Assembly: GCF_025854375.1 (NCBI RefSeq)
Contig: NZ_CP107575.1
Coordinates: forward strand, 744,001 to 808,000
DNA from: Glutamicibacter sp. JL.03c
GTDB taxonomy: Bacteria > Actinomycetota > Actinomycetes > Actinomycetales > Micrococcaceae
Length of the DNA stretch: 64,000 bases
Reading direction: 5' to 3'
Positions 57,095 through 59,542 of the stretch are shown piece after piece; position 1 is the stretch's first letter; every line of letters begins with the position of its first letter. The notes under the pieces were generated by a model. It was not told the origin of the DNA, ran no database searches, and was given only the letters and a program-made list of their open reading frames with translations. The position numbers and the translations under genes were made by a program.

Positions 57095-57214
57095 CAAAAC
57101 TGGGAATCCTCCTGTTTTTCGACGCTGCGATGGGCAGATCGATAAAGCGCCGGGGGATTCGCGGTAGATTTAGAACCTAGACTTTTTTGGATTCGATTGA
57201 AAGGCAGTGCCACG

Positions 57215-57976
57215 GTGCAGCTTCCCAACCTTGCGTACCGTTACTACGAACGGCGCTTGGCGAAGTCACTGCCCGCTGACAAGCTCCCGCACCATATCGG
57301 AGTCATGGTTGACGGCAACCGCCGTTGGGCCAAGCTCGCCGGTTCGCCAACCATGGCCGGCCATCAAGCTGGGGCGGACAAGATCCTTGAATTCCTGGAC
57401 TGGTGCGAAGACCTGAATATCAAGATGGTCACGCTCTACATGCTCTCCACGGACAACTTGAATCGCGAGGCGAACGAACTGCGCGACCTCTTGGAAGTCA
57501 TCGGCGGAACCCTGGATCGCCTGGGTGAAACCAATCGGGTCAAGGTCCAGCAGGTCGGTGCCAAGGACTTGCTTCCAGAGGATTTGGCGCAGAAGCTGGC
57601 TGCCTTGGAAACGATCACCGAGAACCGCACCGGAGTGCATGTGAACGTGGCCATCGGCTACGGCGGCCGACGCGAAATCCTCGATGCCTTCAAGGCGTTG
57701 CTGTGCCAAGCGGCCGAGGAAGGCCGGACCGTTGAAGAAGTGGCGGAAAACCTGTCCACGGACGATATCGAATCCGCTTTGTACACCAAGGGCCAGCCCG
57801 ACCCCGACCTGGTCATCCGCACCAGTGGCGAGCAGCGCCTGAGCGGATTCCTCACCTGGCAGAGCGCGTATTCAGAGTTCTACTTCTGCGAAGCGCTGTG
57901 GCCTGACTTCCGGCGTGTTGATTTCTTGCGAGCCCTGCGCGACTTTGCCGATCGCCAACGCAGGTTCGGCGCCTAG
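57215..57976 (+). CDS. uppS: Isoprenyl (polyprenyl) diphosphate synthase, cis-type
   Basis: This 253-residue cis-prenyltransferase builds the polyprenyl carrier for cell-wall synthesis. Conserved: VMVDGNRRWAK with catalytic Asp33, LYMLSTDNLNR, VAIGYGGRREI, and PDPDLVIRTSGEQRLSGFLTWQSAYSEFYF in which the RTSGEQR binds diphosphate. GTG 57215 is preferred over TTG 57197, as actinobacterial members begin with a VQLP-like segment. Product chain length is not predictable from this alone. Confidence 0.93.
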   Translation: MQLPNLAYRYYERRLAKSLPADKLPHHIGVMVDGNRRWAKLAGSPTMAGHQAGADKILEFLDWCEDLNIKMVTLYMLSTDNLNREANELRDLLEVIGGTLDRLGETNRVKVQQVGAKDLLPEDLAQKLAALETITENRTGVHVNVAIGYGGRREILDAFKALLCQAAEEGRTVEEVAENLSTDDIESALYTKGQPDPDLVIRTSGEQRLSGFLTWQSAYSEFYFCEALWPDFRRVDFLRALRDFADRQRRFGA

Positions 57977-58020
57977 CGCCCGATGAGGCGAACAGAGTTT
58001 AAATAATCGTTACCCAGAAG

Positions 58021-58200
58021 TTGCTTGCTAGTGGTCGTGCAAGGACTATGGTGATCATAAGGCCGGGGCATCAAGCTCCAGCTGATCGAAGGGTTCCGCA
58101 CTAGATGACCACAAGCAGCGCCAGCCGGTACAGCTACCGGACACGCCTTGGACATCCGGTGTCGGGCTTCCCCACTAACGCGTGGGGAAAGTCCCCACGC
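58021..58200 (+). ncRNA. Candidate structured 5' leader (regulatory RNA) of phoH
   Basis: Nested pairings suggest one long folded domain: TGCTT/AAGCA (58022-58026 with 58113-58117), GTGGTC/GACCAC (58031-58036 with 58107-58112), GTGC/GCAC (58037-58040 with 58098-58101), GATCA/TGATC (58053-58057 with 58083-58087), and GGGGC/GCTCC (58065-58069 with 58075-58079). Then come CCGGTA-CAGC-TACCGG (58125-58140) and two mutually exclusive hairpins sharing GTGGGG: TTCCCCAC/GTGGGGAA (58168-58189) or GCGTGGGG/CCCCACGC (58180-58200). The ATG of phoH follows 25 bases later. I match it to no riboswitch class I know. Confidence 0.5.
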
Positions 58201-58225
58201 CGGATTCGAGAATGGGTGCGCTGCC

Positions 58226-59542
58226 ATGAGCCGAACTGCCGAACAGGACGTACGAACCTACGTCATTGACACCTCGGTCTTGCTTTCAGATCCGAAGGCG
58301 ATGTTCCACTTTGAAGAGCATCATGTGGTGATTCCTTTGACTGTGGTCACCGAGCTGGAGAACAAGCGCAAGGATCCCGACCTCGGATATTTTGCGCGCC
58401 AGGCCCTGCGCCTGCTCGATGACCTGATCGCCAGCCACGGGGGACTTGCCCAGGCGGTTCCCGTGTCATCGGCCGGCGGCACGTTGCGCATTGAACTGAA
58501 CCATATTGCTCCTGAAGTTCTCCCGGTCGGAATGCGCTCGGGGGATAACGACGCCCGCATCCTCGCCGTCGCCAAGCACCTGCTGGATTCAGGACTTGAT
58601 GTTGCCCTGGTGACCAAGGACCTGCCCATGCGCATCAAGGCGTCAGCGATGGGGATCCACGCCGAGGTGTACCGCAACGAGCTGATCGCCTCCACTGGCT
58701 GGACCGGAATACAGCAGCTGGACCTGGACGAGGAATCGATGGCGGGGCTCTATGAGCGAGAACAGCTCTCCAACCTGCCCGCGGTTGCCGAAGCGCCCAT
58801 CAATACGGGCTTCGTGATCACGTCGCCGCGTGGCAGCGCATTGGCCCGCAAAACCGATGAGAGCACGCTGAAGCTGGTTCGCGGAGATCAGCAGGCCTTT
58901 GGGCTGCATGGCCGCAGCGCAGAGCAGCGGATCGCCTTGGACTTGCTGATGGACCCTTCAGTGGGCATCGTGTCCCTTGGCGGTAACGCCGGTACCGGCA
59001 AGTCGGCACTGGCACTGTGTGCCGGGATGGAAGCGGTCCTGGAGCGCCGCGAGCACCGCAAGATCACCGTCTTCCGTCCGCTCTACGCAGTGGGCGGCCA
59101 GGAGCTGGGCTACCTTCCGGGTTCCGAGGGCGAGAAAATGGGGCCCTGGGCCCAAGCGGTATTCGATACCCTCGGCTCGATTGTCTCGAAGAACGCGATC
59201 GACGAGGTCCTGGAACGCGGAATGCTCGAAGTCCTGCCGCTGACGCATATCCGCGGACGTTCCCTGCATGACTCGTTTGTCATTGTCGACGAGGCCCAGT
59301 CCCTGGAACGCAACGTGCTGCTTACCGTGCTCTCGCGCATCGGGCAGAACTCCAAGGTGGTGCTCACCCATGATGTGGCCCAGCGGGACAACCTGCACGT
59401 GGGGCGCCACGACGGCATCGCCGCAGTGGTAGAGCAGCTCAAGGGACATTCCCTGTTTGGCCACGTGACGCTCACCCGTTCGGAGCGTTCAGCTATTGCC
59501 GCCCTGGTGACCGAAATGCTCGATTCGCCGTCGCTGCGCTGA
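58226..59542 (+). CDS. phoH: PhoH family protein with N-terminal PIN domain (PhoH2 type)
   Basis: This 438-residue fusion of a PIN RNase domain and a PhoH ATPase has PIN residues [13 protein letters not shown] (Asp15), [16 protein letters not shown] and [13 protein letters not shown]. The ATPase has Walker [13 protein letters not shown] near residue 253 and Walker [13 protein letters not shown] near 350, with [10 protein letters not shown] later. PhoH2-type proteins have been reported as RNA helicase/RNase enzymes, sometimes after an antitoxin gene; none is seen here. ATG 58226 was chosen because it leads directly into the PIN fold. Confidence 0.93.

Follow-up and report, generated by a model that had tools for sequence, protein, structure and literature searches.

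A conserved cis-regulatory leader upstream of phoH2 in Glutamicibacter sp. JL.03c, with a candidate upstream open reading frame attenuator

Introduction

PhoH2, an RNase/helicase of wide distribution, is still poorly understood. In Glutamicibacter sp. JL.03c its gene is preceded by a strongly folding intergenic region, and the question raised by the locus is whether this region controls phoH2 and by what kind of mechanism. A preliminary description, made from the letters of the DNA, took the region for a cis-regulatory RNA with mutually exclusive hairpins, possibly responding to a metabolite or stress signal. We followed this up in the window, a stretch of 64,000 nucleotides at positions 744001-808000 of the 3.59-Mb single-contig genome, by comparison with the genomes of its genus (counts of 18 include the window's own genome) and with phoH2 loci of other actinomycetes.

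Results

The region fills the gap between the end of the isoprenyl transferase open reading frame (57976) and the phoH2 start codon (58226), flanked and preceded by the following features.

57197 to 57976, + strand: undecaprenyl diphosphate synthase family gene (isoprenyl transferase; PF01255, E 1.3e-74), open reading frame as listed, start codon putative
58047 to 58052, + strand: predicted -10 box TATGGT, from the alignment of 18 genus leaders, comparative evidence only
58058 to 58061, + strand: predicted transcription start, 6-9 nt past the -10 box, placed from that box and the onset of conservation
58226 to 59542, + strand: phoH2, ATG at 58226, PIN domain plus PhoH ATPase, 438 aa (PF13638 PIN_4, E 3.5e-26; PF02562 PhoH, E 4.5e-49)

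The gene is present in 18/18 genomes of the genus, and its top public matches (80 taken from at least 591) come mostly from Arthrobacter and genera allied to it, with protein identities of about 70%. The leader DNA is far more restricted: in a search of 58 genomes it was matched once each in the window genome and in 16 of the 17 other genus genomes, one of these matches (G007) covering only 71 of 224 bases, and in 0/40 genomes of other genera; the single genus leader missed by the search (L115) was located by position. Conservation in the genus alignment begins abruptly at a TAnnnT hexamer (58047-58052) with variable inner bases, the relatives having TATCGT, TAAGGT, TAGCCT or TAGGCT and the T, the A and the last T being invariant in 18/18. 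We read this hexamer as a -10 box and infer an RNA start near 58059; a scan with a generic sigma-70 consensus finds no promoter in the leader region. The preliminary description had staked its RNA on a start no further downstream than 58120, and the predicted start lies upstream of that point.

The same promoter assignment bears on the nested helices that had been drawn as closing a 96-nt domain (58022-58117). Counted over 16 of the 18 genus sequences (L017 and L115 left out), the pairs of this domain with a 5' base upstream of 58047 are formed in 156/288 cells (54%), against 92/112 standard pairs (82%) for those starting in 58047-58061 and 98/112 (88%) for the inner hairpin at 58062-58082. 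As the 5' arm lies on and upstream of the conserved -10 box it is probably promoter DNA and untranscribed, and the domain as drawn was rejected; the inner hairpin is real.

Downstream of the predicted start, the RNA from about 58059 to the phoH2 ATG is conserved in the 18 genus genomes, one of which (L017) is without hairpin P4 and its surroundings. The strong folding noted earlier stands: 58010-58225 folds at -98.2 kcal/mol (z -4.81, 0/200 shuffles as stable). RNAalifold, applied to all 18 genus leaders (alignment A1), gives a consensus structure with these parts.

58062 to 58082, + strand: hairpin P1 at the RNA 5' end (helix 1, 91.1% of cells paired, 2/5 pairs changed on both sides)
58092 to 58110, + strand: weak hairpin P2, GGUU/GACC, with the start codon of an upstream open reading frame at the loop edge (helix 2, 97.2% paired, one double-change pair)
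58115 to 58121, + strand: 5' strand GCAGCGC of closing helix P3, pairing with 58218-58224 (helix 3, 96.8% paired, 2/7 pairs changed on both sides)
58125 to 58140, + strand: hairpin P4 (helix 4, 4/6 pairs changed on both sides)
58145 to 58148, + strand: anti-Shine-Dalgarno (anti-SD) GCCU, pairing with GGGU 58214-58217 (helix 5, 92.6% paired, no double changes)
58155 to 58204, + strand: long hairpin P5, UCCGGUG 58155-58161 with CGCCGGA 58198-58204, enclosing the A:B pairing described below (helices 6-8, nearly invariant)
58214 to 58218, + strand: SD2, the Shine-Dalgarno sequence of phoH2, GGGUG (AGGUG in three relatives; genus alignment)
58218 to 58224, + strand: 3' strand GCGCUGC of P3, one base from the phoH2 start codon (RNAalifold, alignment count)

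Over the 18 leaders 95.5% of 782 cells are paired, against 36.5-50.5% in slid-partner controls, an advantage that is in part built in by predicting the structure from the same alignment. Nine pairs carry double changes where shuffles give 3.9, and covariation is 0.173 against 0.126 (0/500). The compensatory changes among relatives on which the preliminary description had made its case depend are thus present, and the perfect small hairpin it had pointed out at 58125-58140 (P4) is borne out by them, both partners being replaced in 4/6 pairs across the 18 genus sequences, of which 17 have the hairpin. All double changes sit in helices 1-4, with none in the anti-SD helix 5. P5, A:B and the segments A, B and C within P5 vary so little that covariation has no purchase on them. 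As the sequences stand, the SD region of phoH2 is predicted to pair with a leader segment that starts 8 nt past the start codon of an upstream open reading frame (uORF).

This uORF had no place in the preliminary description and is a new, predicted part of the leader.

58088 to 58093, + strand: SD1 of the uORF, GAAGGG (GAAAGG in some relatives), an SD-like match 11 nt before the uORF ATG
58105 to 58269, + strand: uORF of 54 codons overlapping the phoH2 start in another frame, its ATG at 58105 invariant in 18/18, its length and end varying in relatives

The conserved stretch GAAGGGUUCC.CACUAGAUGACC contains both the SD-like sequence and the ATG 11 nt further on, a spacing longer than usual; the pattern GAA[AG]GGTT, 3-4 nt, CACTnGATG is found in 18/18 genus leaders, so that each has the SD and conserved start codon expected of a uORF-dependent translational attenuator, with translation predicted. 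The frame that follows is less constant. It has 54 codons in 12 of the leaders, 41 in three and 34, 32 and 30 in one each, ending exactly on the phoH2 start (ATGA) in L011, L013, L014 and L017, 16 nt before it in L012 and 22 nt before it in L115. It is kept up to an HPV...T.AWG stretch in 16/18 (IPV...T.AWG in L115, lost in L017), and the rest of the genus peptide beyond that stretch is unconserved. With a uORF in the leader, ribosome-dependent attenuation or coupling becomes the likely mechanism in place of ligand sensing.

We read the RNA from about 58059 to 58225 as the transcribed 5' leader of phoH2, gated by its uORF, a reading to which, mechanism included, we give somewhat better than even credence. 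On this reading a ribosome at the uORF, or paused in its first codons, would keep GCAGCGC (58115-58121) unpaired and so expose the phoH2 SD (the ON state); with no ribosome loaded, or once the ribosome had moved on, GCAGCGC would close over the SD again (OFF). The conserved feature would then be ribosome loading and not peptide sequence. The prediction was examined by folding at 30 C with a ribosome-sized footprint in 53 leaders of three clades. With the footprint on the uORF start, SD2 openness rises in 41/53 leaders and falls in 10/53, the mean going from 0.37 to 0.49 in the genus (0.38 with footprints elsewhere), from 0.44 to 0.53 in Arthrobacter (0.47 elsewhere) and from 0.37 to 0.53 in Mycobacteriaceae (0.41 elsewhere). 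This modelled effect is small, and the uORF start is the best footprint position in 19/53 leaders only (9/18 genus, 4/18 Arthrobacter, 6/17 Mycobacteriaceae). In the window leader openness starts from 0.37 in the free RNA, reaches 0.53 with a ribosome at codon 1, stays at 0.43-0.47 over codons 3-11, drops to 0.25-0.37 over codons 13-25 and climbs again to 0.46-0.52 over codons 27-29 (these labels count from 58104, one base before the true first base of the uORF, 58105); given the second rise, the start is not the only position with this effect.

The competing hairpins of the preliminary description are also present, as segments A, B and C, although the distance it gave from GTGGGG (58182-58187) to phoH2 was wrong: the motif ends 38 nt before the ATG and not 25.

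58170 to 58175, + strand: segment A, CCCCAC, identical in 13/18 genus leaders
58180 to 58187, + strand: segment B, GCGUGGGG, containing GTGGGG, identical in 18/18
58193 to 58200, + strand: segment C, CCCCACGC, with CCCCAC at 58193-58198, pairing with B instead of A, identical in 17/18

Invariance is to be expected where a segment has two partners, and the variants found in the genus leaders retain G-U pairs; the same invariance keeps covariation from proving either pairing. P4, which has no competing partner, is rewritten with compensation across the genus. In free RNA the mean predicted probability is 0.96 for A:B and 0.01 for B:C, with A:B at 0.89 or above in 17/18 leaders and undecided only in L012 (0.47). 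Once a ribosome-sized mask ends at A, B:C takes over, with a mean of 0.98 and values of at least 0.96 in 18/18 leaders; in the window leader this occurs in the masked folding with ribosomes at uORF codons 15-21. Genus mean SD2 openness is the same with or without B:C formation (0.34 and 0.34), and SD masking does not therefore explain A/B/C. A uORF ribosome further downstream would flip A:B to B:C and may add a step of transcriptional pausing, termination or RNA processing; the switch would serve such another step (pausing, Rho, an RNase), a mid-ORF ribosome not opening phoH2. At the DNA level the segment GCGTGGGGAAAGTCCCCACGC (58180-58200 of the window) is a perfect palindrome with a 3-nt spacer and arms nearly invariant in the genus, which makes a protein operator an alternative role for it.

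The leading alternative is that the leader acts as a transcription attenuator: B:C, or in other clades their GC hairpin, would be a terminator without a U-run or would lie near a Rho-dependent site, uORF translation relieving or enforcing termination. We regard this as possible, at rather under even odds. It would make direct use of the shift of B:C from 0.01 to 0.98 with a uORF ribosome over A in 18/18 genus leaders, and Rho-dependent termination has been reported together with uORFs for other M. tuberculosis leaders (PMC12810186, PMC11260477). The published M. tuberculosis RNA-seq also bears on it: Table 8 of PMC3207917 gives phoH2 a 210-nt 5' UTR with an RPKM of 208 against 44 in the coding region, a UTR/CDS ratio of 4.7 in exponential phase, and the corresponding ratio in stationary phase is 11.9 (PMC3207917). 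These values agree with overproduction of the leader relative to the coding region, and the 4.7-11.9-fold excess of leader reads in that source is what attenuation would give, but it is equally explicable by processing or stability. B:C is moreover disfavoured in free RNA, and the region has no T-run terminator, 0 terminator-like sites (hairpin plus U-run) being found in 57970-58260.

Whether the leader extends beyond the genus was judged from the upstream DNA of 80 public phoH2 loci, those ranking highest among at least 591 matches. An exact-string search for the genus motifs in these other loci gave scattered matches only. A reading of the leader as a genus-only element, drawn from those scattered matches, was dropped when the upstream sequences themselves were read and a shared layout appeared. 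The same order of parts in different letters lies upstream of phoH2 in Arthrobacter, Streptomyces, Cellulomonas and Mycobacteriaceae, and the full layout of -10 box, 5' hairpin, SD1 plus uORF start, further hairpins and phoH2 is found in the window and in alignments of Mycobacteriaceae (A2: 18/22 loci, with L137, L141, L146 and L149 left out) and of the Arthrobacter group (A3: 23/28 loci picked, with L022, L035, L044, L048 and L059 left out). SD1 with a start codon occurs in 44/80 of these loci (shuffled mean 1.4, max 4) and in 18/22 Mycobacteriaceae loci, and a GGCCAC-type motif in 12 more of the 80, mostly Microbacteriaceae going by record titles; neither was found in 24/80.

In A3 the order of parts is -10, P1, GGGGAGG, ATG, a GGAGGCC..GGCCUC hairpin, a last hairpin, SD and GTG. 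The strict SD1-ATG pattern fits 18/23 A3 leaders, all 18 with a 23-codon uORF and no indel, whose stop at one position is TAA in 15, TAG in 2 and TGA in 1. The A2 leaders covary, 15/30 predicted pairs having double changes, most of them in the first and last hairpin; in this alignment RNAalifold pairs the SD1-adjacent GGUCC with the phoH2 SD, and that pairing has no double changes. In 23 genomes of the putative Mycobacterium genus the ATG stands about 9 nt past the -10 box, so that the ORF may be leaderless there; an ORF of 37-92 codons is found in 22/23 of them and ends on the phoH2 start codon in 13/22.

Several loci drew attention on other grounds. In L146 and L150-L171 (putative Mycobacterium) the uORF N-termini read MASDMLCC and similar, with a Cys-Cys pair in many. 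One genome of the same genus (L164; 2.5 Mb, 80% complete) is without the leader, its -10 box and ATG standing almost directly before the phoH2 SD, a deletion that offers a natural comparison for leader-bearing genomes. Two records, one titled Vibrio cholerae strain 35D (L022) and one an Acidobacteria bacterium MAG (L021), have a phoH2 resembling that of Arthrobacter, its protein 71% identical to that of the window, and upstream regions of Arthrobacter type; these assemblies are probably contaminated or mis-binned. About 50-80 nt upstream of the leader core, GTTCAC-N5-GTTCAC direct repeats with an 11-bp period occur in L024, L027, L028, L041, L043, L045, L128, L129 and others, and we take them to resemble the PHO box of PhoP. 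PHO-box-like matches of at least 10/12 are found in 17/80 public loci, 9/21 Mycobacteriaceae, 1/23 putative Mycobacterium and 0/18 window-genus promoters, the mean best match being 8.2 in the public loci and 9.3 in Mycobacteriaceae against about 7.0 in shuffles. This suggests phosphate control of phoH2 in the clades whose promoters bear such boxes.

To follow the leader by structure we used a covariance model (R2) of P1, SD1 and P2 from 17 Mycobacteriaceae leaders of A2 (L128 left out). A first model, R1, went unused, its second helix being doubtful and taken from RNAalifold. Across 99 loci R2 gave 44 matches up to E 1, comprising 2 training leaders, 1 stray match in a training locus and 41 others. 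Of these 41, 35 are on the phoH2 strand at 60-330 nt before the gene and 6 are elsewhere; with the cutoff at E 0.01 the division is 16 upstream of phoH2 and 0 elsewhere. Among 197 genomes of the class, searched with the stricter filters applied above 40 genomes, 41 have a match at E up to 0.01 at 45 places, compared by hand with phoH2 positions (G160, G192 and G085 were checked individually): 33 are upstream of phoH2 (two, in G086 and G171, being training sequences) and 12 elsewhere, and every one of the top 23 (E up to 1.8e-5), the two training sequences among them, falls upstream of phoH2. Strong R2 matches go with phoH2. Sensitivity is low, the leader being found in 33 genomes when 185/197 carry phoH2.

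The window genome itself has no R2 match, and in the genus member L115 the model reaches E 0.12 only, at the right place. The core match between genus and Arthrobacter is modest (mean 21.4; shuffled 15.4, sd 3.0, 3.5% as high; control 13.8). Kinship of the window leader to those of other clades is drawn from the layout and this core match, and given both the modest score and the missing R2 match we call it a probable, diverged member: probably a genus-specific form of a phoH2 leader that is widespread in Actinomycetes.

The association of strong matches with phoH2 is also what autogenous control predicts, in which the RNase/helicase PhoH2 would bind and unwind or cleave its own leader, the hairpins and uORF tuning the feedback. 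The protein has the PIN and PhoH domains for it, and its reported preference is for double-stranded RNA with a terminal 5' A-C-[A/U]-[A/U]-[G/C] (PMC7390352), of which ACUAG, within CACUAG of the leader, is an example in 16/18 genus leaders. A degenerate 5-mer is, however, expected by chance in a leader of this length, ACUAG is missing from 2/18 of these leaders, and it was looked for in the window genus only. We consider autogenous control unlikely, if still a serious candidate.

Discussion

The comparison places a conserved cis-regulatory leader upstream of phoH2, well supported by conservation, compensatory changes, actinomycete counterparts and the abundant 210-nt UTR of M. tuberculosis. 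As originally described, then, a cis-acting RNA before phoH2 is real. The uORF-dependent attenuator is the best explanation of its action, held with moderate confidence. Candidate signals would be binding of the leader by PhoH2 itself, stress on translation, or phosphate.

The uORF has a published counterpart to be weighed. PhoAT, as reported (PMC7390352, PMC4826407), is the product of a short co-transcribed gene upstream of phoH2 in mycobacteria; it interacts with PhoH2, and a growth defect is relieved. The PhoAT-PhoH2 locus of mycobacteria, as described in PMC7390352, PMC4826407 and PMC8165232, has the same downstream gene with a short co-transcribed ORF directly upstream, and from its position the mycobacterial uORF probably corresponds to phoAT. 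The window locus likewise has the downstream PIN-PhoH protein of a PhoAT-PhoH2 type II toxin-antitoxin pair. An operon of this type, in which the uORF encodes a PhoAT-like antitoxin and the RNA structure is secondary, has the published mycobacterial pair behind it (PMC7390352, PMC4826407), together with the alike ORF N-termini within the putative Mycobacterium genus (e.g. MASDMLCCPGGT, MASNLLCCQGGT, MASELLCCPGGT).

The peptides themselves speak against it. They look unrelated between clades when compared by eye, and even inside putative Mycobacterium the species do not agree in the frame that crosses the hairpin (RTGPGPG vs REGRPRP). The Arthrobacter uORFs have 5 synonymous and 31 other codon variants, with 1890 of 2000 column shuffles giving at least as many synonymous ones; given no synonymous excess, we make no claim of a selected peptide. 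The window-genus ORF ranges from 30 to 54 codons. With peptides differing between clades, in length and in frame, the upstream ORF does not behave as a conserved antitoxin protein. Where PhoAT is published as a protein antitoxin, here the peptide is unconserved between clades and the structured RNA is conserved, and the window-genus ORF differs from PhoAT as there described in its SD-like site and its peptide. A start site and hairpin that are kept, beside a peptide that is not, argue for a cis role of ribosome loading. We rate the toxin-antitoxin account as improbable; the mycobacterial uORF product may also bind PhoH2 as published, alongside the cis role.

A metabolite riboswitch of a new class, the possibility raised in the preliminary description, is very improbable: competing helices do stand near the ribosome-binding site and the genus leaders share the conserved stretch GAAGGGUU..CACUAGAUGACC, but SD1 and the uORF start occupy that same stretch, the large domain proposed for it is half promoter and unconserved, no conserved aptamer-like domain was seen, the core common to other clades is a simple hairpin plus SD, and Rfam gives no match. 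The preliminary description could place the leader in no known class and had named an Rfam match as what would overturn it; release 15 holds none for the leader. Searched with Rfam (release 15), the window yields tRNA only, the leader region up to E 10 three matches all far below the gathering score, 20 phoH2 loci none, and 12 loci one weak match under the gathering score plus two ASdes matches that reach it, each lying outside the leader. A literature search of titles and abstract openings found no phoH2 leader RNA or riboswitch, a description in Andrews and Arcus 2015/2019 or D'Halluin 2023 being possible. On present evidence, from Rfam release 15 and the literature searched, the leader is new as a family and of a known kind.

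That kind is represented in M. tuberculosis. The pe20 Mbox leader, as reported, combines SD1, anti-SD, SD2, uORFs and Rho (PMC12810186), and the pe20 Mbox platform and the uORF-linked B12 switches (PMC11260477) likewise have SD1 plus uORF, anti-SD and SD2 in one leader; uORF translation there reportedly affects the downstream gene, with stop/start overlap in the ppe2 case. They differ from the phoH2 leader in carrying known aptamers (Mbox, cobalamin), of which our Rfam search found none. The ilvB1 attenuator, as reported (PMC13236596), has a short ORF followed by mutually exclusive hairpins chosen by ribosome position, as proposed here, and the cysteine-responsive leaderless ORFs of mycobacteria, as cited in PMC13091356 and PMC13236596, follow the same short-ORF/hairpin logic. 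From such leader-peptide attenuators the phoH2 leader is set apart by having no run of regulatory codons common to clades, an unconserved peptide and no U-run terminator. The nearest published object is the 5' UTR of M. tuberculosis phoH2 itself (PMC3207917, Table 8), a 210-nt leader of the orthologous gene that exceeds its coding region in reads; it appears there as a table row, and structure, uORF and conservation are absent from the passages concerned.

Taken across the clades, the comparison suggests a shared but undescribed control of PhoH2 in many actinobacteria. In its widest form, an Actinomycete-wide leader whose uORF, whatever peptide it encodes, controls access to the phoH2 ribosome-binding site through ribosome loading and switches the competing hairpins, phoAT being at least in part that uORF, the proposal is tentative and would sooner fail than hold. 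The leader adds a candidate RNA family that is unmatched in Rfam release 15. It could account for M. tuberculosis phoH2 having more leader than coding RNA, and it allows the view of phoAT as an antitoxin to be tested cleanly. Because it accompanies phoH2 in soil, antibiotic-producing (Streptomyces) and mycobacterial lineages, it gives a direct handle on what triggers PhoH2. Should the proposal hold in its widest form, control of PhoH2 would lie with a leader that senses translation, and a protein antitoxin would have at most a share in it.
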